IMG/VR virus record: IMGVR_UViG_3300008012_003740
Coordinates: 1-25,268 of that record
Strand: one strand, 5' to 3'
DNA from: a virus
Length of the DNA stretch: 25,268 nucleotides
The notes below the pieces were generated by a model. That model was not told where the DNA came from. It did not search any database and saw nothing but the letters and a program-made list of their open reading frames with translations. Positions 4,565 through 24,019 of the stretch are shown in pieces. A program made the position numbers and the translations under genes. How positions within the stretch are numbered: the first letter of the stretch is position 1; the number at the start of each line of letters is the position of its first letter.

Positions 4565-6373
4565 TCAACTCAAGAAGTCTATGTTCAAAGGCATTGAGCT
4601 TTGTTCCTTGAACGTAATAGGTTGGAACAGAGCCCGTTGACCAATTCGCGTTGTGAATCCAGTGTGGGAAAGATTCATAACTAGGCAGTAAGGATCCTCC
4701 AATGCGGTCGGCTGACCACCTGTCTCCACCTCACGCACCTTCCGTACATGTAACTCACTCATCTTGCGGATCTCAGGGTCCATTGCTTGAACCTTTCGGT
4801 GAATTGTCATGAAGCAATCCGCTCTGTTTACGAACTTTCCACCACCCTCTGTGTCCTCAGCGTATGGGGCTACGGGCAAACCGTCTGGTCCCTTGCGGCG
4901 CTGAGCCTCAGTGACAGCGTGCATGTTCAGCCACACAGCCACGTTGTTAGCCTTGCTGAATGTCAGGAACTCTGACGCTGCTTCGTAGTGGTAGTCGTGT
5001 ACACCGATGCTTGAGTTCTTCATGTCCAACTTGAGAGAGTTGTACGGGTCAACGAAGATGGCATCAACTGGTTGCTGGCGCATGACCTTCTCCATGAACA
5101 GGATGATGTCTGCGTAGCTGTACACCTGACTGTTGTTAATCACAGTGAAGTGTTCTTGCACCCACTTGTACGCCTCCTTGCGTTCGAAGTAAGTCATGTC
5201 GGATACCTTCTTGTCCATGGCGAACTGCATGAGCGTCATCTTTACGGATGCGGTGCGGTTCTCTGACGAGTAGATAACCCACTTCCATCCATGACGTACA
5301 GCTGAGTTGGCAATCAGGTACAGCATGGTGGTTGTCTTACCCACGTTGGAGTGGCCGTTGACAATAACGAACTCCTTCTTGTATCGGAAGTTCTCGTCGA
5401 GACGAGGATCCCCCGTGTCCAACCCGAGCGTGATCATGCCCTGTGAGTAGTCATCAATCCAACGGAAGTCCTCATCGTCAGACGAGATGAAGGACATGTC
5501 TCCGTCGTTGAGCAACATCTCACGCTGCACAGACTTCTCCTCGTCGATGATGTCACGGATCGGGGTTTGCTTACCCTTCTCGATGCCAGCGATGATGGTC
5601 TGCTTGGCGTGGTCCTCGTTGTCTACCTCACGCTTGCATACCTCACGGAACAATACACGAACCACTTCCTCTTCCTCCATGCGGCCAGCCGCAATGTATC
5701 CTCCGCACAGAATCGCTGCTCGGTTTAGTGTAATCCACTTCTCTCCGTCCTGTGCCAGTCGAATCATACGACAGGCAAGGTTGAGCTTCATGTAGTCTGT
5801 GTGGTCGTAGGCTTCGTTGGTTGGTACCTGCGCTTCGGCGTGCTCGGTAGTGAAGTGACCGAACTTCTTGAACTCATCCTTGATGATGATGTCTGGGTCA
5901 AAGGACTCGAAGCATGCACGAGACTCATTGATACCTGACTCATCTAGCTCAAGCCCATGCGTTCTTTCGAAGTACTTGATAAGGGCACGGAAGTGGTCGC
6001 GGTGCCTCTCAGGGTTCGTAATCTTGACAAGAGCCTTGACTCCCGCGCCACTAGGCGACGTCCAGCATGAGTGAATAAAATCATCCGTGGCAAGACTCCT
6101 CTTGGTCGCGTCAACATCCACGTGATCAAAGTCGAGGATAATGAAACCCGAATGCTCAAATAGCGCCTCATCAGACCGAGACGAAAACTCCCCGCTGAAA
6201 CAAACAACGGGGAGCTCAAGCTTCTTTTCTTTGTTGCCATCACGTACCTCAGACACCAGTGAACTGGACTTCCCAGTCTGTATCCGCTGTAGTGCTGTGC
6301 TTAGCTGTATGTGGTGCGGAGTCGTCTTGTCGTAGACGTTTTTGAATATCGTTACTTTCATTTTCTTTCGCAA
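4565..6373 (-). CDS. Replicative primase-helicase: BT4734-like (VirE_N) N-terminus fused to DnaB/RecA-type helicase
   Basis: 602 aa. Residues 5-170 match the BT4734-like/VirE N-terminal domain common in Bacteroidota elements: VTIFKNVYD, LPVVCFSGEF, the acidic pair ILDFD at 79-83, and SPSGAGVKALVKI at 106-118, an arrangement resembling archaeo-eukaryotic primases (DhD, then a Gly-rich sxG motif). Residues about 190-270 look like a helical primase C-terminal linker. Residues about 315-560 are a RecA/DnaB-like ATPase: Walker A GHSNVGKTT (340-348), Walker B AIFVDPYNS (438-446), and WLNMHAV (481-487) at the H-loop position. It should unwind the fork and may prime it; no Toprim or zinc-ribbon DnaG domain is visible. 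The start could be ATG 6373 or 6361; both overlap the upstream gene by over 100 bases. Confidence 0.8.
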   Translation of the reverse strand: MRKKMKVTIFKNVYDKTTPHHIQLSTALQRIQTGKSSSLVSEVRDGNKEKKLELPVVCFSGEFSSRSDEALFEHSGFIILDFDHVDVDATKRSLATDDFIHSCWTSPSGAGVKALVKITNPERHRDHFRALIKYFERTHGLELDESGINESRACFESFDPDIIIKDEFKKFGHFTTEHAEAQVPTNEAYDHTDYMKLNLACRMIRLAQDGEKWITLNRAAILCGGYIAAGRMEEEEVVRVLFREVCKREVDNEDHAKQTIIAGIEKGKQTPIRDIIDEEKSVQREMLLNDGDMSFISSDDEDFRWIDDYSQGMITLGLDTGDPRLDENFRYKKEFVIVNGHSNVGKTTTMLYLIANSAVRHGWKWVIYSSENRTASVKMTLMQFAMDKKVSDMTYFERKEAYKWVQEHFTVINNSQVYSYADIILFMEKVMRQQPVDAIFVDPYNSLKLDMKNSSIGVHDYHYEAASEFLTFSKANNVAVWLNMHAVTEAQRRKGPDGLPVAPYAEDTEGGGKFVNRADCFMTIHRKVQAMDPEIRKMSELHVRKVREVETGGQPTALEDPYCLVMNLSHTGFTTRIGQRALFQPITFKEQSSMPLNIDFLS

Positions 6374-12239: not shown

Positions 12240-12468
12240 TGTCGTTGAATTTTGGTGATTGTTCCATGATATATTGAGCTACAAGCTCTTCGATGTCATC
12301 GACTACGTTGTCCACGTCATTGTGTGTGAGTTCGTAGTCGTTAATCATTAGCTCGGAGAGGTGATTGTATCCGCTCTTTACGCCACTACTCATGGAGTAT
12401 GCAACGTGGCTGGCATTGAAGCAGTTGCTAACGTAGCAACGCAGGTCGTATAAGGTTTCGTCAGTCAT
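12229..12468 (-). CDS. Hypothetical acidic protein (79 aa)
   Basis: Start chosen at ATG 12468 (MTDETLYDLRCYVSNCFNAS) because it makes an ATGA junction with the upstream stop; an in-frame ATG at 12498 would add ten residues and a longer overlap. The protein ends in an acidic tail (SPKFNDNDE). No family is recognised. Confidence 0.6.
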   Translation of the reverse strand: MTDETLYDLRCYVSNCFNASHVAYSMSSGVKSGYNHLSELMINDYELTHNDVDNVVDDIEELVAQYIMEQSPKFNDNDE

Positions 12469-13118
12469 TTGATAAAGGTTACGTGTTTGTCCATCCACTC
12501 TCCGAGAGCATCCTCCTTGGGTGGGTCGTAGCTGTCTGACCCCTTGGGTTTGGGGATACGGAAAGCGTGCATGGTGTAGTCGTCCATGTCGATGAACGCA
12601 TGGTTTCGGTAGTACACAGAGGAGATGAACTCCGTGAGTTGTTGCAAGGTCAACTCATAGTCAGTGTACTTGCCTGTGTTGTCCATCACATCAGAGGACA
12701 CACGAGCCACCAAGGACATACACAAGGGGAAGTAGTCCCATGCTTGGGTAGTATCCTGTTGGTCCCACGTCAACCAACAAGACTCGGTGGAGCCACTGCG
12801 GTTGGACATGTCAATCTCGATGATGCGGAACACCTCGACGCTTACGTTGTCGCCGTTCTCTGCCACCCAGTCGTCGTGGTCCATGCTCTTGACGGTGACC
12901 GAGGCGTGGTAGTCCTTGTAGTCACGGGTCATGGTGACGTGGATGTTTGTGGGGTCAGAGCCATCAATGTGTACGCACATCTCATCTTTGCGATACTCGC
13001 TGAGGGTTTCAACGACGTGTTTGTCTGCGAATCCCCGCTTGGGGAAGAACTCACAGGTGGTGTCGGAGTACCCTTCGAAGAGTCCTGCGACAGCGTGGAT
13101 TACTGCATATTGTTTCAT
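12465..13118 (-). CDS. Hypothetical protein (217 aa)
   Basis: Begins MKQYAVIHAVAGLFEGYSDT; a mixed alpha/beta protein with many Asp, Tyr and Trp (SCWLTWDQQDTTQAWDYF, DMDDYTMHAFRIPKPKGSDS). No family or catalytic motif is recognised. It heads an operon running down to 12000 at least. Its leader carries the TTCAAACTTCAA box (13129-13140 on the other strand) and a long hairpin, the plan shared by the following operons. Confidence 0.65.
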   Translation of the reverse strand: MKQYAVIHAVAGLFEGYSDTTCEFFPKRGFADKHVVETLSEYRKDEMCVHIDGSDPTNIHVTMTRDYKDYHASVTVKSMDHDDWVAENGDNVSVEVFRIIEIDMSNRSGSTESCWLTWDQQDTTQAWDYFPLCMSLVARVSSDVMDNTGKYTDYELTLQQLTEFISSVYYRNHAFIDMDDYTMHAFRIPKPKGSDSYDPPKEDALGEWMDKHVTFIK

Positions 13119-13207
13119 GGTTATTGAATTGAAGTTTGAATTTTGAAGTCGTATAAGTCTCTCTAACTATACACTCTTCATAAATGAAGAGAGTGTATAG
13201 TAAGAGA
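13119..13207 (-). promoter_or_regulatory. Operon leader type element 1: hairpin plus TTCAAACTTCAA box
   Basis: Read on the minus strand: a 22-bp imperfect palindrome (arms 13160-13181 and 13184-13207, with a 2-base insertion), then about 20 A/T-rich bases, the box TTCAAACTTCAA (13129-13140), then about 10 bases to the ATG at 13118. The same arrangement recurs at 14123, 15245, 15971, 16675 and 17314. It may be an operator, an mRNA-stabilising 5' hairpin with an A/T-rich ribosome-loading leader, or a terminator followed by a phage promoter. Confidence 0.55.
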
Positions 13208-13218
13208 TACTATATAGT

Positions 13219-13346
13219 AGCAGAGGGTGGAGTCGAACCACCACACAAGCTCATACTCGTTGCCATAAGCCCTCGGTAAAGGGTGGAAGGAGTAGCTATT
13301 GCCGTGTACACACCGATGCGATGCCTCCATCGCAAGTGTCACTGCC
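13219..13346 (-). ncRNA. tRNA-like element 3 (consensus T-arm, non-standard body)
   Basis: The minus strand carries a perfect T-arm, GGTGG-TTCGACT-CCACC (13226-13242), followed by CTCTGCT-A where an acceptor 3' strand and discriminator belong. The best 5' partner, GGCAGTG (13340-13346), pairs 6 of 7 positions with a G-T wobble and one mismatch, giving 128 nt, far longer than a tRNA. The interior contains a strong GCGATG/CATCGC hairpin and no clear anticodon arm. It could be a degenerate tRNA or a tRNA-mimicking RNA. The T-arm is solid; the boundaries are uncertain. Confidence 0.35.
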
Positions 13347-13352
13347 ATGTAG

Positions 13353-13461
13353 AAGGGAGGTTGGGATTCGAACACAACTGCCGTCATTGGGGTTGGGGAG
13401 TTTCGGCGTAAGCCTCATCCCAGTGCCACCCAAAAAACGTACGCACCGACTGCGCTCCCTT
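13353..13461 (-). ncRNA. tRNA-like element 2 (7-bp acceptor-like stem, D-loop-like and T-arm motifs, 109 nt)
   Basis: Minus strand: AAGGGAG ... CTCCCTT form a perfect 7-bp closing stem. After the 5' strand comes CGCAGTCGGTGCG, like a D arm with the usual AGTCGGT loop. Before the 3' strand comes a T-arm with loop TTCGAAT and a 6-bp stem with one mismatch (13360-13378). Between them, instead of an anticodon arm, is about 55 nt that can fold into an extended hairpin around GGC-TTAC-GCC. No standard anticodon can be assigned. Confidence 0.4.
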
Positions 13462-13470
13462 GAAAAAGGT

Positions 13471-13535
13471 GGGGGGAAGGACTGACGTTTCAATCCCTTG
13501 CATCCTTACGATTGCATCCCGAAAGGCGTCCCCCC
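13471..13535 (-). ncRNA. tRNA-like element 1 (7-bp closing stem, 65 nt)
   Basis: Minus strand: GGGGGGA ... TCCCCCC form a perfect 7-bp closing stem, and a hairpin GGATTG-AAACGT-CAGTCC precedes the 3' strand where a T arm would be, but its loop lacks the TTCRANY consensus. Like element 2, the 5' strand is followed by CG. It lies 9 nt upstream of element 2, and element 3 follows 6 nt after element 2, so the three look like a tandem set. Confidence 0.3.
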
Positions 13536-13547
13536 GATGGTCAAACT

Positions 13548-13691
13548 TCAACTAACCAAATCCTTTGATTCGTTTTGCCACTTGTCGTGGGCTGTTTCTA
13601 CGGCAGTGTTGATGGCCTCTGCCTGTGCCCTGTCGATCGCCTGACCCTGCATACGGGACAGCTCGATGATTACGTTGATAATGTCAGTCAT
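13548..13691 (-). CDS. Hypothetical small helical protein (47 aa)
   Basis: Reads MTDIINVIIELSRMQGQAID, then an Ala/Glu-rich helix and a C-terminus ending ESKDLVS. It overlaps the start region of the upstream zinc-ribbon gene by 8 bases, the same spacing as several other junctions here. An inverted copy of the TTGAAGTTTGA box begins inside its stop codon. No function can be assigned. Confidence 0.6.
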   Translation of the reverse strand: MTDIINVIIELSRMQGQAIDRAQAEAINTAVETAHDKWQNESKDLVS

Positions 13692-13863
13692 TGTCGTTGT
13701 TTCTGTCGTAAGGTTTGAGTTCGAAGCTCATCACCCATGTGGCTTCGCAGTCTTCGCATTGGTAGTCGTAGTGCCAGTTCTCTCCGTCTGAGTCAGAGTT
13801 GAGCACCACACCCACACCACCACACTTGTGGCAGGTATCGTAGTTGATGATTTCCTTATCCAT
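13684..13863 (-). CDS. Four-cysteine zinc-ribbon protein (59 aa)
   Basis: Start set at MDKEIINYDTCHKCGGVGVV; the frame extends upstream but becomes shadow sequence. Cys11-x2-Cys14 and Cys36-x2-Cys39 (YQCEDCEATW) form a classic zinc ribbon with two knuckles, followed by a charged tail (PYDRNNDND). Such ribbons bind nucleic acid or protein; no partner can be named. It overlaps neighbours by 8 bases on each side. Confidence 0.65.
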   Translation of the reverse strand: MDKEIINYDTCHKCGGVGVVLNSDSDGENWHYDYQCEDCEATWVMSFELKPYDRNNDND

Positions 13864-14122
13864 TGTACTTGTCGTTGATTCGTTGTTGTGTGTCCTCACA
13901 GCAGGAGACCCACGCCTCCATGTTGATGAGCGAGATACCGCCTCCGTTCTCACGGCGCTTGCGCTCATCCTCAAGGATTTCCTCCTTGGCTGAGATGTAG
14001 TGGTCAAGACCACGCTGAAGGCAGTCGATGATGACCATTTGCACGAGTGCTCCGTGCTTGTTGTACCCCGTCATGAGGTGGCTGATGAACTCGTCGTTCG
14101 TCATGTCTTTGATGTTGTCCAT
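13856..14122 (-). CDS. Hypothetical helical protein (88 aa)
   Basis: MDNIKDMTNDEFISHLMTGY, then helical sequence with CLQRGLDHYISAKEEILEDE and a C-terminal VSCCEDTQQRINDKYNG. No family is recognised. It is first gene of a three-gene operon (with the zinc ribbon and 47-aa genes) behind leader element 2. Confidence 0.6.
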   Translation of the reverse strand: MDNIKDMTNDEFISHLMTGYNKHGALVQMVIIDCLQRGLDHYISAKEEILEDERKRRENGGGISLINMEAWVSCCEDTQQRINDKYNG

Positions 14123-14214
14123 AGGTATTGAATTGAAGTTTGAAAATGTTGTTGAGAGGTGTTGTATATATCTCTCTTCACTACGTTCAGAGAGAGATAT
14201 ATACTAACACTCTC
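14123..14214 (-). promoter_or_regulatory. Operon leader type element 2
   Basis: Minus strand: long imperfect palindrome with arms 14189-14214 and 14154-14177 (about 23 pairs, core TATATATCTCTCT) around the 11-base loop that reads TCACTACGTTC on the plus strand. The box TTCAAACTTCAA (plus-strand 14133-14144) and the ATG at 14122 follow. The hairpin touches the stop codon of the preceding gene (14214). The loop and adjoining CTCTCT/AGAGAG are shared with element 3. Confidence 0.6.
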
Positions 14215-14411
14215 TAAGTAAGGTCGAAGTTGGTGTTCTTGAAGGCCTCTTCGAGGGTGGCCTTGTTGCCCATGTCCGCCTTGAACCACGCCTCGATGAG
14301 CGCTCGTTCGAAGCTACCGCAGTGGGTTTGTCGGAGGGAAAGTCGTTCGTGTTGTGTCATGCCTTGGATGTGTTTTGCCACACCATCTTTCCAGATGTCG
14401 TTGATGTTCAT
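14214..14411 (-). CDS. Hypothetical protein (65 aa)
   Basis: Start set at MNINDIWKDGVAKHIQGMTQ, since it forms an ATGA junction with the upstream stop and the frame upstream is Arg/Pro-rich shadow. The protein is helical with HERLSLRQTHCGSFERALIE; no family is recognised. Its TAG stop is embedded in the hairpin of the next leader element. Confidence 0.6.
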   Translation of the reverse strand: MNINDIWKDGVAKHIQGMTQHERLSLRQTHCGSFERALIEAWFKADMGNKATLEEAFKNTNFDLT

Positions 14412-14605
14412 TTGTCTGTTGTTTCTACTCCCCACCACTCGATTTCTTCGTCGTGGATGCGGAAGCTGAATGATTCTTGGAGGGTGTCGTCCCACACGCT
14501 GTCCAACCACACGCCGTGGTCGTCAGGTGCACCCTGTACGTGAGAGGCGTCAAAGCCTTTGTCTTGCAGTGCCTTGACTGCACGTTCGCATTGTTCTTGT
14601 GTCAT
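14408..14605 (-). CDS. Hypothetical acidic protein (65 aa)
   Basis: MTQEQCERAVKALQDKGFDA, then a beta-rich acidic part (DDHGVWLDSVWDDTLQESFS, EIEWWGVET). ATGA overlaps on both sides. No family is recognised; the alpha-then-beta pattern is compatible with a small ferredoxin-like fold (inference). Confidence 0.6.
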   Translation of the reverse strand: MTQEQCERAVKALQDKGFDASHVQGAPDDHGVWLDSVWDDTLQESFSFRIHDEEIEWWGVETTDK

Positions 14606-14916
14606 AGGTCAATGATTACGCCCTTCTTTTCAAGGGCATTGATGATGTAGTCAGGGAGGTCGAAGCATCCATCGTACCCCGTGAGGCGTACACTGCCGTC
14701 CTCATCGTGCGCTGTTTCGAGTACACCCTCTGCATAGAAGCGGTCGCCACCTGTTTCGAGGTCGTAGGTTTCGTACCATCCACCATATTGGTGGTCAGGG
14801 TCAATAGACACCGAGGTGTCCATCTCCACACCCTTCGCGGCGTCAAGGTCTACGTCGTAGGCTGTCCGCATTGATACGAAGGGGAGTGTGTGCTTGAAGG
14901 AGTGTGTAAATTTCAT
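14602..14916 (-). CDS. Hypothetical protein (104 aa)
   Basis: Start at MKFTHSFKHTLPFVSMRTAY, which makes an ATGA junction with the 34-aa gene upstream; the longer frame is shadow sequence. Acidic beta-rich protein (DTSVSIDPDHQYGGWYETYD, GYDGCFDLPDYIINALEKKG). No family is recognised. Confidence 0.6.
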   Translation of the reverse strand: MKFTHSFKHTLPFVSMRTAYDVDLDAAKGVEMDTSVSIDPDHQYGGWYETYDLETGGDRFYAEGVLETAHDEDGSVRLTGYDGCFDLPDYIINALEKKGVIIDL

Positions 14917-15017
14917 TGGTTGTTCAACTTGTTGATGATGAGAGAAAGGATTGAGGACCCACCGAGCACAAGAATGAGCGCAGAGGGCGTGTTCATGAGG
15001 GCGTATTCGATTGTCAT
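14913..15017 (-). CDS. Small single-pass membrane protein (34 aa)
   Basis: Reads MTIEYALMNTPSALILVLGG, continuing through a hydrophobic segment to IINKLNNQ. Residues about 11-28 form one membrane-spanning helix. It fits exactly between two ATGA junctions (14913-14916 and 15014-15017), strong support for such a short gene. It might act at the inner membrane during infection; nothing more specific can be said. Confidence 0.55.
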   Translation of the reverse strand: MTIEYALMNTPSALILVLGGSSILSLIINKLNNQ

Positions 15018-15244
15018 GCTTCGGAGTTTTCGGCATCGTCAGCCCATCCAACAAGGGTGTCAATGACTGCGTCCTTTGCGTCATCGCTCATGAATGTGGT
15101 GTTGGTCAGGAGGGAGGCCATGCCTTTCACGTCGTCGGGCACAAGCCGAGCGCACCGATTGAGGTCGTCGAGATGCTTCCCGAAGTGGAGGTCGTTGAGG
15201 TAGAGCACCGCCGCACCGACGGGGCGTTTGAAGAAGTTGTCCAT
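15014..15244 (-). CDS. Hypothetical protein (76 aa)
   Basis: MDNFFKRPVGAAVLYLNDLH then helical sequence (KHLDDLNRCARLVPDDVKGM) with an acidic C-terminus (GWADDAENSEA). No family is recognised. It heads a five-gene operon (15244 to 14214) behind leader element 3. Confidence 0.6.
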   Translation of the reverse strand: MDNFFKRPVGAAVLYLNDLHFGKHLDDLNRCARLVPDDVKGMASLLTNTTFMSDDAKDAVIDTLVGWADDAENSEA

Positions 15245-15335
15245 GAGATTGGAAATTTGAAGTTTGACATTGAGAGGTATCGTATATATATTCTCTCTTC
15301 ACTACGTTCAGAGAGATATATATACTGATACTCTC
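15245..15335 (-). promoter_or_regulatory. Operon leader type element 3
   Basis: Imperfect palindrome with arms 15272-15298 and 15310-15335 around the loop TCACTACGTTC (plus strand), nearly the same as element 2 in stem core and loop. The box TCAAACTTCAA (plus-strand 15257-15267) lies between hairpin and ATG 15244. The hairpin abuts the stop codon of the 27-aa gene (15336). Confidence 0.6.
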
Positions 15336-15419
15336 TTAGGATTGGAGGATTGCCACCACCAAAAGCGCGGCCATCCATGCAAGGAATGCGAGGAACGCGA
15401 GGTTCATTCGTTTGTTCAT
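15336..15419 (-). CDS. Very small membrane protein (27 aa)
   Basis: Reads MNKRMNLAFLAFLAWMAALL and then VVAILQS: a basic N-terminus and one hydrophobic helix, as in phage micro-membrane proteins. The TAA stop lies one base from hairpin element 3, matching the stop-hairpin rule of its neighbours. A 15-bp gap separates it from the upstream gene. No homologue is recognised. Confidence 0.45.
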   Translation of the reverse strand: MNKRMNLAFLAFLAWMAALLVVAILQS

Positions 15420-15434
15420 GTAAATGGGTTTAAG

Positions 15435-15608
15435 TTACTGGTTTTCAGTGGGTTTCATCTTGGACCTCCACACCGTGTATCCCGTGCCTGCCCACTTGGT
15501 TTGGGCGTTGCGGATGGCCGTGGCTCGGTCAACAGCCTCGATGGTGTGCGGACCTGACCAGTCGTCGCGGTCACGTCCAAGGTATACGTAGTACGAGTAT
15601 GTGTTCAC
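15435..15608 (-). CDS. Hypothetical protein with GTG start (57 aa)
   Basis: Starts at GTG 15608 in a GTGA junction with the upstream stop, parallel to the ATGA junctions around it; there is no nearby in-frame ATG. Sequence: NTYSYYVYLGRDRDDWSGPH, then TIEAVDRATAIRNAQTKW and a C-terminus ending MKPTENQ. It looks like a small alpha/beta protein; function unknown. Confidence 0.6.
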   Translation of the reverse strand: MNTYSYYVYLGRDRDDWSGPHTIEAVDRATAIRNAQTKWAGTGYTVWRSKMKPTENQ

Positions 15609-15970
15609 AGGTAGATGGATTCAGAGTTTGCGAAGTCGTAGATGGCTTTCTCTCCACGTGCTCGGGCAAGTTCGAGAGCCACCTGCTTGGACTTGACTAC
15701 GTCAGAGAGTTCGAGGTAAGCGATGCCATAGGCATCGACCCAAGCCCCGATGACCTGCGCTGGCTCAGTCACCACCGACTGAAGTCGGTTGATTTCTCGG
15801 TTGAAGATTCGGAACGACAAGTCGTCGTTCTTGCACTTGAATACGCCCACTGCTGGCTCTGCACCACCGACTGCGTAGCCCTCTTTGGCCGCATAGGTGA
15901 GGAGGTCGTTGGCTCGGACGCTGAAGCCCTCGCTCTCTTGAACGAGGAAGTATAAGGATTTGATTGTCAT
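15605..15970 (-). CDS. Hypothetical protein (121 aa)
   Basis: MTIKSLYFLVQESEGFSVRA, with a mixed alpha/beta pattern and EPAQVIGAWVDAYGIAYLEL. No family is recognised. It is first gene behind leader element 4; its ATG context (ACGATG after ATCT) is shared with the next operon upstream. Confidence 0.6.
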   Translation of the reverse strand: MTIKSLYFLVQESEGFSVRANDLLTYAAKEGYAVGGAEPAVGVFKCKNDDLSFRIFNREINRLQSVVTEPAQVIGAWVDAYGIAYLELSDVVKSKQVALELARARGEKAIYDFANSESIYL

Positions 15971-16071
15971 CGTAGATGGTTTTTGAAGTTTGAATTTTCA
16001 GTTGGTTTAGTGTGTTCGTGTGTATCACTTCTTTCACTTCGTTCAAGAAGGTGATACACACTCACACTACA
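15971..16071 (-). promoter_or_regulatory. Operon leader type element 4
   Basis: Palindrome arms 16008-16033 and 16045-16069 pair over about 23 positions around the loop TCACTTCGTTC, one base different from the loop in elements 2 and 3 although the stem sequence is different (TGTATCACTTCTT core). The box TTCAAACTTCAA (plus-strand 15983-15994) lies between the hairpin and ATG 15970. The hairpin ends two bases from the stop of the next gene (16072). Stem divergence with pairing kept suggests selection on structure. Confidence 0.62.
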
Positions 16072-16674
16072 TTAGCTCCATCGGTTCCGGATTGTCACCC
16101 AAATCGTAGCCTGCAGGACGTGCCCGCTCACACCCAGCTCACGTGCAACTGCAAGGCAGTCAGATTGAAGGAGTTGATACTGCTTCGCAGTACACGCCTC
16201 CCTACACTTGCGAGGTGACTTCGCTGTCGTCTGACAGGCCCGAAGGTGCCACTTGTCGATGGTGACGTAGTCCTCGTCCATCTCACCCACGTTACGTGCA
16301 AACGCATACGTCTTGGGGGACTTCTGAAGGATGGCCCTATTGCCCTTGGCAATATCAAAGGCCTTCACCTTGTTGGCGTCGTAGGTGCACACCCTGACGT
16401 CCGTGTACTCGATCGAGTCACGCACCGCACGGAGGACCGTCTTGGCGTCAACTTTGTTCCTCTCCCACCGATTATTCGGTGACAGAGCGCTGACTACGCC
16501 CGCCGCGACCTCACGGCTGACGTTGAACTCTTGAGAGAGTTCTTTGGCAAAGTTCTGAGCGTCAGTGTACCACTGACGTCCGTGTTCACGTTCCACTTCA
16601 GTGGATTCGGACCACCATTTCCGAAGGTTGGCTCGCATACTCTTGCGTGCCTTGGGGCAAGAAAGGTTTTTCAT
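16072..16674 (-). CDS. Hypothetical protein with remote HhH-GPD DNA glycosylase-like pattern (200 aa)
   Basis: Start set at MKNLSCPKARKSMRANLRKW; the frame upstream of it is shadow. The protein is helical, with VVSALSPNNRWERNKVDAKT, then KVKAFDIAKGNRAILQKSPK, TYAFARNVGEM and YVTIDKWHLRAC. The sequence of KA-x-x-hAKG, a short loop with K-T, and a later hTID-x-W resembles the KA...G, helix-hairpin-helix with catalytic Lys, and distal Asp of HhH-GPD glycosylases. Relatives of this protein occur in other marine phages, as far as I recall, without experimental function. The C-terminal third is Cys/Lys/Arg-rich (TAKSPRKCREACTAKQYQLL). Repair or base excision is a hypothesis only. Confidence 0.55.
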   Translation of the reverse strand: MKNLSCPKARKSMRANLRKWWSESTEVEREHGRQWYTDAQNFAKELSQEFNVSREVAAGVVSALSPNNRWERNKVDAKTVLRAVRDSIEYTDVRVCTYDANKVKAFDIAKGNRAILQKSPKTYAFARNVGEMDEDYVTIDKWHLRACQTTAKSPRKCREACTAKQYQLLQSDCLAVARELGVSGHVLQATIWVTIRNRWS

Positions 16675-16746
16675 CGTAGATGAGTTGAAGTTTGGGGGAG
16701 AGAAAGAGAGGGGGATGAGCGCACTCACACACACCCCCCGTGAGGC
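16675..16746 (-). promoter_or_regulatory. Operon leader type element 5 (weaker hairpin)
   Basis: The box CAAACTTCAA (plus-strand 16685-16694) precedes ATG 16674, whose context ATCTACGATG matches element 4. The upstream hairpin is weaker: GGGGG/CCCCC closing (16710-16714 with 16733-16737 region) over TGAG-CGCA-CTCA, in a G/A- and C/A-rich stretch. It occupies the whole 72-bp gap to the stop of the H1-like gene at 16747. Confidence 0.45.
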
Positions 16747-17313
16747 TTACTTGATTCCGGCTTCCTCCAAGCTAACTTCGTTAGCAGGAGAGGGGACTGC
16801 CATCGTCTGCATGTGCAGGGCGAGGACTTCCGTCAAGCTGTTCAGCTTGTCCTCCAAGGAGGACAACCGCTGGGCTTGAGTTGGCGCCTTCTTCGAAGGC
16901 TTCTTCGCCGTCACCTTCGGTGCTTCGGCGGCTTCAGCCTTCGCCTTGGCCTCTGCTCGCTTGGCTGCCTTGGCCGTGGCTCCAGTGGCTTCGCTGACAG
17001 CTTTAGCTGACTTTGCGGCATCCTTGACCGAAGCCGTCTTCGCCTTCTTCGAAGGCTTGATGGGACCAACTTCGTTGGTTTTCATCGAGGCTCGGTCCAT
17101 GTGGTCTGCCACCTTCTGTGAAGGTGTTCGCTTCGTCGTCTTACGACGACGCTTTTTAGCTTTCGGCTTGGTCTCCTTAACCTCTTCGAGGTTAGTGACG
17201 AAGTCCATAGCTTCTTGCAGAAGCTTCAGCGCCGCGGTCTTGCGGTCTGCGGTGGGACGGAAGGTGGCTTGGTTCACTGCCTTACGGCAGTCTGAGAAAT
17301 TGAAGTTGTTCAT
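16747..17313 (-). CDS. Histone H1-like Ala/Lys-rich nucleoid-associated protein
   Basis: 188 aa, start at MNNFNFSDCRKAVNQATFRP (the 26 codons upstream lie in the leader hairpin). Residues 1-50 are a small helical head. Residues about 55-160 are a disordered Lys/Ala/Pro-rich tract (KPKAKKRRRKTTKR, AKAAKRAEAKAKAEAAEAPK, KKPSKKAP) like the tails of eukaryotic H1 and bacterial Hc/AlgP-type proteins. A C-terminal amphipathic helix follows (RLSSLEDKLNSLTEVLALHM). It would bind DNA non-specifically, condensing phage or host DNA or competing with host nucleoid proteins. It is the first minus-strand gene away from the divergent control region, so it may be expressed early. Confidence 0.65.
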   Translation of the reverse strand: MNNFNFSDCRKAVNQATFRPTADRKTAALKLLQEAMDFVTNLEEVKETKPKAKKRRRKTTKRTPSQKVADHMDRASMKTNEVGPIKPSKKAKTASVKDAAKSAKAVSEATGATAKAAKRAEAKAKAEAAEAPKVTAKKPSKKAPTQAQRLSSLEDKLNSLTEVLALHMQTMAVPSPANEVSLEEAGIK

Positions 17314-17421
17314 CGGAGATGAATTTGAAGTTTGACCTCGGTCGGCGACTTCCAAACCGATTACGAGATAGTAGTATAAGAAAGAAGTCATTCTGACTTC
17401 TTCTTTCTTATACTACATCTC
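17314..17421 (-). promoter_or_regulatory. Operon leader type element 6
   Basis: Near-perfect palindrome: arms 17365-17390 and 17394-17421, about 25 pairs with small bulges and a 3-base TTC loop. The box TCAAACTTCAA (plus-strand 17324-17334) and ATG 17313 follow on the minus strand. This copy has no gene directly upstream, so the hairpin cannot simply be an intercistronic terminator here. Confidence 0.6.
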
Positions 17422-17462
17422 TACTTTTCCACCCTAATTACTCTAACGAGTTAGAGTAAAGG

Positions 17463-17573
17463 ATGAGCCAATCTTGGTACCAACGTGAAGCTCAACAAGT
17501 TGAGCCGCGCCGTACCCCGCCTAACGCACCGCTCCGCCAAGGAGATTTTGAGGGGGTTTCTGTTACAGTTTAA
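17463..17573 (+). CDS. Possible 36-aa peptide bracketed by two related palindromes
   Basis: ATG at 17463 directly after AAAGG and four bases from the end of one CTAAC-N2-GTTAG palindrome; the TAA stop is the first three bases of the second one. Peptide: MSQSWYQREAQQVEPRRTPP, then NAPLRQGDFEGVSVTV. No homologue is recognised. The frame also contains the GCTCAAC/GTTGAGC dyad. The bracketing is striking, but an open frame of 36 codons can arise by chance. Confidence 0.25.
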   Translation: MSQSWYQREAQQVEPRRTPPNAPLRQGDFEGVSVTV

Positions 17574-18005
17574 TACTAACTAGTTAGTATTAGAGTTAAT
17601 TGTCAATACCGAAATGGCACCCCGTTAAGGGGTGAAATGTCAATAGCAAACTGGTTGGGGAGGGATTGTTCCAACCTTGCGTAGAACGCACCTTCCTTGC
17701 GTGTTCTTCCTGCATTGGTGGAGCTGAACTGCCTTAACTCACTCTGCCTCAGTACCTTGTACTGAGATAAAAGCTGAAATGTACAGCGGATTTGTGGGGG
17801 GACTATAGGGGGGCCATCTCTGTGGGCCGTTTCGGATGTGTAGGCGTAGCGTGTATATATATATATAATCCCCCAGATCTGTGTAACTGACCCCAAAAAA
17901 CGTCGCTTCTGTTCTGCTTCTTCTGTCCTCTTATTTCAAGTAAAGACCTCTAAGTCGCTCGTTTACAATACGTTTGACTCCTTTACTTAAAGCTATTCTT
18001 TACTC

Positions 18006-18036
18006 TTGACTTTCAAGCTTTTTGTTTATACCTTTG
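18006..18036 (+). promoter_or_regulatory. Bacteroidota-type promoter TTG-N20-TACCTTTG for the late operon
   Basis: TTG at 18006-18008, exactly 20 bases, then TACCTTTG at 18029-18036, a full match to the -7 consensus TAnnTTTG and the usual 19-21 spacing. Transcription would start near 18043, about 160 nt before the transglycosylase ATG. It is the best promoter in the window. Confidence 0.7.
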
Positions 18037-18189
18037 CAGTATCGAAGCTGCTTCAGTGATACTTACACATCCAAAGTTGGTTTTTGTGTGTATGCACAAA
18101 GCAAGTCTTAGATGTTTATGCTGAGGGGGCACCTGTGTCTTCTTGTGGAGGCCTTTCTTTTGCTGGTTATGGGGTAACGTGGTGTTGAG

Positions 18190-18197
18190 TATATTTG
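18190..18197 (+). promoter_or_regulatory. Second -7-like box TATATTTG just before the transglycosylase start
   Basis: TATATTTG ends four bases before the ATG at 18202. No TTG lies at 19-21 bases upstream (TTA is the nearest), so it may be a weak promoter giving a leaderless message, or chance. The surroundings (TAnATTTGC then GG, then ATGAGA) resemble those upstream of the metalloprotease. Confidence 0.25.
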
Positions 18198-18201
18198 CGG
18201 A

Positions 18202-23930: not shown

Positions 23931-24004
23931 GCGCGAGTAGCATAACTGGATAATGCCCAAACCTTCTAAGTTTGTTATTGGGGGTTCGAGTCCCTCCTCG
24001 CGTA
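23931..24004 (+). tRNA. tRNA-Arg (anticodon TCT)
   Basis: Canonical cloverleaf of 74 nt: acceptor GCGCGAG / CTCGCGT with discriminator A, D arm GCAT-...-ATGC with an AACTGGAT loop, anticodon arm CAAAC-CTTCTAA-GTTTG giving anticodon TCT (reads AGA), variable loop TTATT, T arm GGGGG-TTCGAGT-CCCTC. CCA is not encoded. It would help translate AGA codons, which appear often in these genes. Confidence 0.92.
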
Positions 24005-24019
24005 CTAATTCAATTTACC

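Follow-up and report, generated by a model that had tools for sequence, protein, structure and literature searches.

A repeated early-leader box and a candidate small RNA with a complementary, co-varying seed in a group of related marine phages

When RNase III processes T7 early mRNA, or tRNAs punctuate mitochondrial transcripts, structures between cistrons set the mRNA ends. Three further parts of the picture developed below are known already: antisense control by the c4 RNA of P1 and P7, whose loop-borne complements pair with a phage mRNA close to its ribosome-binding site and are the basis of heteroimmunity between related phages (PMC12197685); repression of many mRNAs by T4 RegA, which competes with the ribosome for the initiation regions of about 30 mRNAs of the phage (PMC3014915); and the idea that hammerheads cut phage transcripts. 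For the last, PMC3088659 describes clustered prophage hammerheads that flank phage genes and for which a role in cutting long transcripts down to operon-length mRNAs is proposed, as well as, in haloviruses HF1 and HF2, a single hammerhead that lies 13 nucleotides (nt) ahead of a start codon. Here, we analyze an IMG/VR virus record, IMGVR_UViG_3300008012_003740 (25,268 bases, all of which form the window), in which a short repeated box precedes six genes and is matched by one antisense copy in a candidate small RNA. Comparison with related sequences shows how the leaders are built, how devices replace one another in front of a given gene, how ribozyme and small RNA are structured, and that box and seed co-vary, forming four classes. 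The explanation that best fits the whole, to which we assign a probability of roughly 0.6, is a set of RNA-regulated early cassettes in which one phage small RNA would recognize the box in trans by base pairing. The open-access texts that we searched contained no account of a single small RNA that matches a repeated early leader box, or of interchangeable 5'-end devices that lead into one box.

The box (consensus TTCAAACTTCAA) is combined with a hairpin and a start codon in six minus-strand leaders between positions 13119 and 17421 (Table 1), and the gap from box to ATG is 10-12 nt at all six. When up to two mismatches are allowed, the window contains ten matches as compared to 3.5 expected, a count reached in none of 100 shuffles. 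A seventh copy, overlooked in the initial annotation, lies on the opposite strand at 13540-13551; this copy is the key to the system. Across the window and its relatives there are 238 unique box contexts: 29 of the antisense type and 209 others. An ATG located 0-22 nt downstream opens an open reading frame (ORF) of at least 25 amino acids (aa) in 185 of the 209, with a sharp mode at 10-12 nt (n = 136).

The antisense copy forms the seed of the candidate small RNA, and it changes with the boxes. There are four box/seed classes, and the seed is an 8-12-nt exact complement of the leader boxes of its own genome: TCAAACTTCAA is the box of most contigs; TCAAACATCAA occurs with seed UUGAUGUUUG in two contigs; TCAAACTTCAC with seed GUGAAGUUUGA in three; and TCACTCAA with seed UUGAGUGA in one. 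None of the six variant-class records contains the canonical box. Each of the three TCAAACTTCAC records contains three or four sense-strand copies and one antisense copy, the latter in the seed. The GUGAAGUUUGA copies were found by a loose pattern with the loop left free, which returned 54 new loci, three of them convincing and most of them chance matches; model scores at other such loci (e.g., L264 and L214) were weak, and the pattern itself had selected for them. The strongest case of co-variation is the TCACTCAA/UUGAGUGA class, because the changes affect many positions in both partners and the RNA came to light through its scaffold: a covariance model run over the other loci, not the seed, identified this divergent small RNA (29.3 bits, E value 3e-7). 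In this 18.6-kilobase (kb) record, the sense strand has exactly three copies of TCACTCAA, each with an ATG 9-13 nt downstream, and the one antisense copy is that in the seed. One of the three boxes precedes the MKQYAVIH... gene (gene 1 of the window), and another comes right after the 3' end of a tRNA-like element. Calculated duplex energies are approximately -17.6 kcal/mol for matched box and seed and -13.3 to -13.8 kcal/mol for mismatched combinations, and the leaders are unstructured. Where canonical boxes clearly deviate internally, the change is mostly C-to-U and keeps G.U pairing with the seed, although these are five cases that mutation bias could explain. Taken in aggregate, predicted pairing between box and seed is strongly supported, and the part recognized in trans is most likely the box, through base pairing with a small RNA whose seed loop complements it and changes with it.

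The region around the seed has the features of a regulatory RNA. Nearly every box-bearing genome contains one antisense box copy, whose transcription sense is that of the genes. It sits in a hairpin of the general form GGUU-NN-UUGAAGUUU-GACC, after which come a GC-rich stem enclosing an inner hairpin (UGA-AACG-UCA) and then a U-rich tail. Co-variation is evident in the stems (13 cells changed on both sides; 0 of 500 shuffles as high), and the window copy scored 58.4 bits with covariance model R1 (match 13463-13563). This RNA lies inside the early transcription unit, and in most genomes a tRNA-like element comes next. The upstream ORF, the stop codon of which overlaps the seed hairpin, differs between phages; therefore, coding does not account for conservation of the seed hairpin. 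No Rfam family, c4 antisense RNA included, matched the small RNA in the window, and an antisense pattern with its spacing off (GGTTNANTTGAAGTTTGACC) returned three unrelated contigs. The complementarity to multiple mRNAs and the conserved structure, with its exposed seed and terminator, point to a trans-acting antisense RNA, predicted to be a separate stable molecule. In L029 (1690-1880), L080, L105 and L117, the small RNA is separated from the tRNA-like element by a conserved non-coding block (AACAUUACCU.GUCAGGUGUGGUGGGGUAGCCAGUCAU ... AUGACUGAC.GCUCGGAAAGACG).

Seed and boxes also occur together. Among 36 contigs with the tRNA-like element, which are related and thus do not provide independent events, 30 carry the seed and at least two boxes, five carry neither, and one carries the seed with a single box; at least two boxes without a seed were found in 0 of 36. 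Contigs that have the flanking tRNA-like element but no seed are also without boxes. In L046, a relative without boxes, the palindrome GTCCACCTAGTGGAC occurs five times (at 2135, 2805, 3219, 4236 and 6534) and is perhaps that phage's own operator set.

What precedes the box is variable. Four types of element are found there in relatives: long RNase III-like hairpins; type I hammerhead ribozymes; tRNA-like elements; and TTTG/TAnnTTTG promoters. Comparison of relatives reveals that the same gene has different elements in different phages. Depending on the phage, gene 1 is preceded by several kinds of hairpin, directly by a tRNA-like element, or by a promoter, and the MTIKSLYF... gene (gene 4) follows a hairpin in the window and a hammerhead in at least seven loci (L012, L073, L087, L097, L098, L108 and L111). 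The property common to all of these devices is that each would put a 5' end just upstream of the box.

This exchange alters how the leaders are understood. The initial annotation proposed a modular expression unit of stop codon, long hairpin, about 20 nt, box and start codon, with the structured hairpin as a signal recognized in trans or an mRNA 5'-stabilizer. That outline is right, and six hairpin/box/start leaders are present. The recognized part is not the hairpin, however, because the same genes elsewhere have a hammerhead, tRNA-like element or promoter in its stead. The distance from hairpin to box is also not constant (approximately 4-28 nt) and, although a hairpin lies upstream of every box, it is not uniformly a long one: that of leader 5 is GC-rich and of a different kind, and leader 6 has both a long and a small hairpin. 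Leader 6 does lack an upstream gene, as had been noted, and leads the leftward cluster as its first gene. The concern that relatives might lack the unit is answered by its occurrence in dozens of related contigs.

The long hairpins are presumed RNase III-type processing sites, for which the long co-varying stems are the part established by sequence comparison. Two earlier observations on them hold: hairpins 2-4 have a loop in common (GAACGWAGUGA in the mRNA-sense, minus strand), and the stems have diverged with pairing kept. For 35 unique leader hairpins from relatives, the arms pair with their own partners at a mean of -28.1 kcal/mol as compared to -16.9 kcal/mol when swapped, and 0 of 20,000 permutations were as low. 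Duplex energies were used here in place of an ungapped arm-register test, which bulges upset. GARUUUAYGA and UUCAUUUAUGAA are also conserved loops. Simple intercistronic termination had rightly been dismissed. The long hairpins were rejected as intrinsic terminators because no U-run comes after them; a promoter was likewise rejected, with no TAnnTTTG in the leftward leaders of the window. The hairpins match no Rfam family; the lone sub-threshold match, to the plastid psbA 3' untranslated region, was judged spurious. The small hairpin of leader 6 has homologues in L015, L113 and L122; a loop similar to GAGAGUCG recurs among them on stems that vary, and the hairpin might be an additional end-making element.

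The hammerheads occur in relatives; the window itself contains none. Their layout is CUGANGAG, stem II, CGAAAC, stem III and GUC^UGURUCAAACUUCAA, an open-stem-I form. In 57 unique examples the core is intact (CUGANGA / GAAA / NUH), and the predicted site ends in UC in 55. Compensatory pair sets number eight in stem I, which is open, six in stem II (all compensatory) and many in stem III. The predicted cleavage site is 4 nt upstream of the box in most hammerhead leaders, and an ATG lies within 40 nt of the hammerhead in 52 of the 57. A search of 23 records placed the core motif on the sense strand in 20, and the reversed pattern gave zero matches. Scores are below the Rfam gathering thresholds (20.9 bits versus 34 for RF00163; 28.7 versus 48.5 for RF00008); assignment as type I hammerheads is made on the core and the co-variation, and self-cleavage is a prediction. 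L084, L139, L146 and L132 have a ribozyme/tRNA-like tandem, in which the hammerhead leads into UGUGUCAAAGC..GCUUUGAGGGGCRUAGCCCGCAAGGUGU..., where a tRNA-like element starts.

The tRNA-like elements keep the acceptor, D and T arms and do not form a canonical cloverleaf, as the anticodon arm is variable or absent; ARAGORN called no tRNA at them. Bacteroidota-type promoters (TTTG, approximately 20 nt, TAnnTTTG) stand just before the box in relatives such as L154, L169, L180 and L224. No TTTG/TAnnTTTG promoter for the leftward operon was found in the window.

These features suggest the following model. Each leader would consist of an interchangeable 5'-end maker, the box at or near the new mRNA 5' end, a spacer of approximately 10-12 nt, and the AUG. 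The small RNA, made within the early region, would present an exact box complement in its seed hairpin, followed by the terminator-like stem and, mostly, a tRNA-like element; the latter may be an RNase P site that parts the small RNA from the next mRNA. The small RNA would then pair in trans with the box of early mRNAs and, as it accumulates, block loading of the 30S subunit and switch early translation off. We infer cleavage at the hairpins and tRNA-like elements, release of the small RNA as a separate molecule, and the 30S block that would shut off the early genes. Repression is favored by the placement of the box: mRNAs of Flavobacterium johnsoniae are A-enriched at approximately -14 to -11, a zone where sequence and structure tune initiation (PMC6847099), and the 3' end of the box falls in this zone; therefore, pairing there would plausibly block initiation.

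Several observations weigh against this model. The variant classes each comprise one to three contigs, and contigs that are related do not count as independent. No seed is seen in some contigs with boxes (G006, G033 and G037), which we read as truncation because their boxes lie near contig ends. The processed 5' ends and the small RNA itself are predictions from sequence, and repression is deduced from position; pairing that ends 10-12 nt before the AUG could be tolerated or even stabilizing. In addition, the leaders of a second phage group (L194, L195, L196, L199 and L200) have a hammerhead or a TAnnTTTG promoter, but the repeated box between this device and the ATG is a different one, TCAAAATCTCAA, and a search of that group for a partner RNA or antisense copy of TCAAAATCTCAA found none. 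A shared box can therefore exist without a partner RNA. Because this group keeps the devices and the box without an antisense partner, the box has a role of its own, and this is probably in initiation.

The main rival retains the pairing and reverses its sign: the small RNA would protect or activate early mRNAs, either as a 5'-end cap against decay or as a surrogate anti-Shine-Dalgarno sequence. The box would be at the extreme 5' end after the predicted cleavage, the leaders are unstructured, and the duplex would end 10-12 nt before the AUG, near the usual place of the Shine-Dalgarno helix, in Bacteroidia, which are reported not to use Shine-Dalgarno pairing. The second group keeps its box without a partner RNA, so expression there needs none, and the best parallel, c4 RNA, represses (PMC12197685). 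We regard activation as possible, though unlikely. A more speculative extension, which we consider doubtful, is an orthogonal phage-wide RNA code: in hosts without Shine-Dalgarno pairing, the seed RNA would serve as surrogate anti-Shine-Dalgarno or master switch for the repeated box, and lineages would have shifted to distinct pairs. If so, related phages would have separate translation channels within the same cell.

The box could alternatively be a protein-binding site, in DNA or RNA, with the opposite-strand copy as another site and the classes as altered protein specificity. A change of specificity would also make all copies co-vary, the inverted one included. The inverted copy, however, is absent where boxes are absent and, where present, always lies within a GGUU...GRCC hairpin belonging to a structured RNA that is conserved and oriented in the same transcription sense, and the boxes directly follow predicted ribozyme cleavage sites; the C-to-U deviations that spare G.U pairing point the same way, with the reservation on mutation bias given above. 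A protein site is very unlikely. Pairing might instead act only in cis, the seed (approximately 400 nt upstream of leader 1 in the window) joining the gene 1 leader in a long precursor to close a processing domain around the tRNA-like elements. This is a shade less probable still, as the remaining boxes, at distances of up to several kb, all change with the seed, and other genes intervene between seed and gene 1 in several genomes. That the hairpin itself is trans-recognized or stabilizing, and the box a passive ribosome-binding region, is the least probable explanation: its conserved loops and co-varying stems would fit, but ribozymes, tRNA-like elements and promoters substitute for it before the same genes while the box stays, and the box co-varies with the seed.

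Table 1. Features of the leaders, small RNA and tRNA-like elements in the window
Feature	Position	Strand	Details
Leader 1 box	13129-13140	minus	TTCAAACTTCAA; ATG of gene 1 (12465-13118, MKQYAVIH...) 10 nt downstream
Leader 1 long hairpin	13156-13211	minus	loop UUCAUUUAUGAA; presumed RNase III-type processing site; arms co-vary across relatives
Second, less clear tRNA-like element	13217-13349	minus	T arm GGUUCGACUCCACC; homologues in relatives
tRNA-like element 1	13353-13461	minus	acceptor AAGGGAG/CUCCCUU, D arm, T arm, variable arm replacing anticodon arm
GC-rich terminator-like hairpin	13471-13536	minus	inner hairpin UGA-AACG-UCA, then U-rich tail
Seed hairpin	13539-13557	minus	GGUU-AGUUGAAGUUU-GACC; holds 12-nt box complement (13540-13551); overlaps stop codon of upstream 47-aa ORF
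Leader 2 box	14133-14144	minus	precedes gene 13856-14122
Leader 2 long hairpin	14154-14214	minus	loop GAACGUAGUGA
Leader 3 box	15257-15268	minus	GTCAAACTTCAA; precedes gene 15014-15244
Leader 3 long hairpin	15272-15335	minus	loop GAACGUAGUGA
Leader 4 box	15983-15994	minus	precedes gene 4, 15605-15970 (MTIKSLYF...)
Leader 4 long hairpin	16008-16069	minus	loop GAACGAAGUGA
Leader 5 box	16685-16696	minus	CCCAAACTTCAA, 2 mismatches; precedes gene 16072-16674 (Pfam DUF7178)
Leader 5 GC-rich hairpin	16710-16739	minus	
Leader 6 box	17325-17336	minus	GTCAAACTTCAA; precedes gene 16747-17313
Leader 6 small hairpin	17338-17360	minus	directly 5' of box
Leader 6 long hairpin	17365-17421	minus	

In the window, the minus strand carries the genes left of approximately 17.4 kb. 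A long intergenic stretch (17430-18200) with palindromes ACTCTAACTCGTTAGAGT and TAATACTAACTAGTTAGTATTA separates divergent gene sets, a TTG/TATACCTTTG promoter at 18006 is directed to the rightward genes, and the plus strand encodes an ordinary tRNA-Arg (TCT) at 23931-24005. The primase/helicase gene (4565-6373) has 76 related loci in viral contigs of up to 65 kb. Its matches in cultured phages are only distant, mostly from flavobacterial hosts, the best being Maribacter phage Panino (34% identity). Relatives of gene 1 were found neither in the phage collection nor in genome contigs, the hammerhead-leader pattern had no match in genome contigs, and the small-RNA region was not found in the phage collection.

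If the antisense model is true, one small RNA could address all early mRNAs through a shared word, placed at the 5' end by whichever device is present. The four box/seed classes make the pairing directly testable by swapping and would offer a natural orthogonal regulator set for Bacteroidota. The model also suggests a reason for hammerheads before genes in these phages, a question left open in PMC3088659. The passages of that paper considered here mention no shared box, partner RNA or exchange with other end makers for the prophage hammerheads. As compared to T7 RNase III processing and mitochondrial tRNA punctuation, several devices here alternate at one place and feed one downstream sequence. 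Like c4, the present RNA belongs to a phage and has a complementary loop predicted to pair near the ribosome-binding site; c4 has one main target (ant), whereas this RNA faces a repeated module in many early leaders. T4 RegA is likewise one phage factor for many phage mRNAs, but is a protein, whereas the proposed factor is an RNA with an 8-12-nt code. Trans-encoded bacterial small RNAs share the order of seed, GC-rich stem and U-rich tail, as well as multiple targets; the present targets differ in being a near-identical module in the phage's own early genes, complementary in full over 8-12 nt and switching class with the seed.

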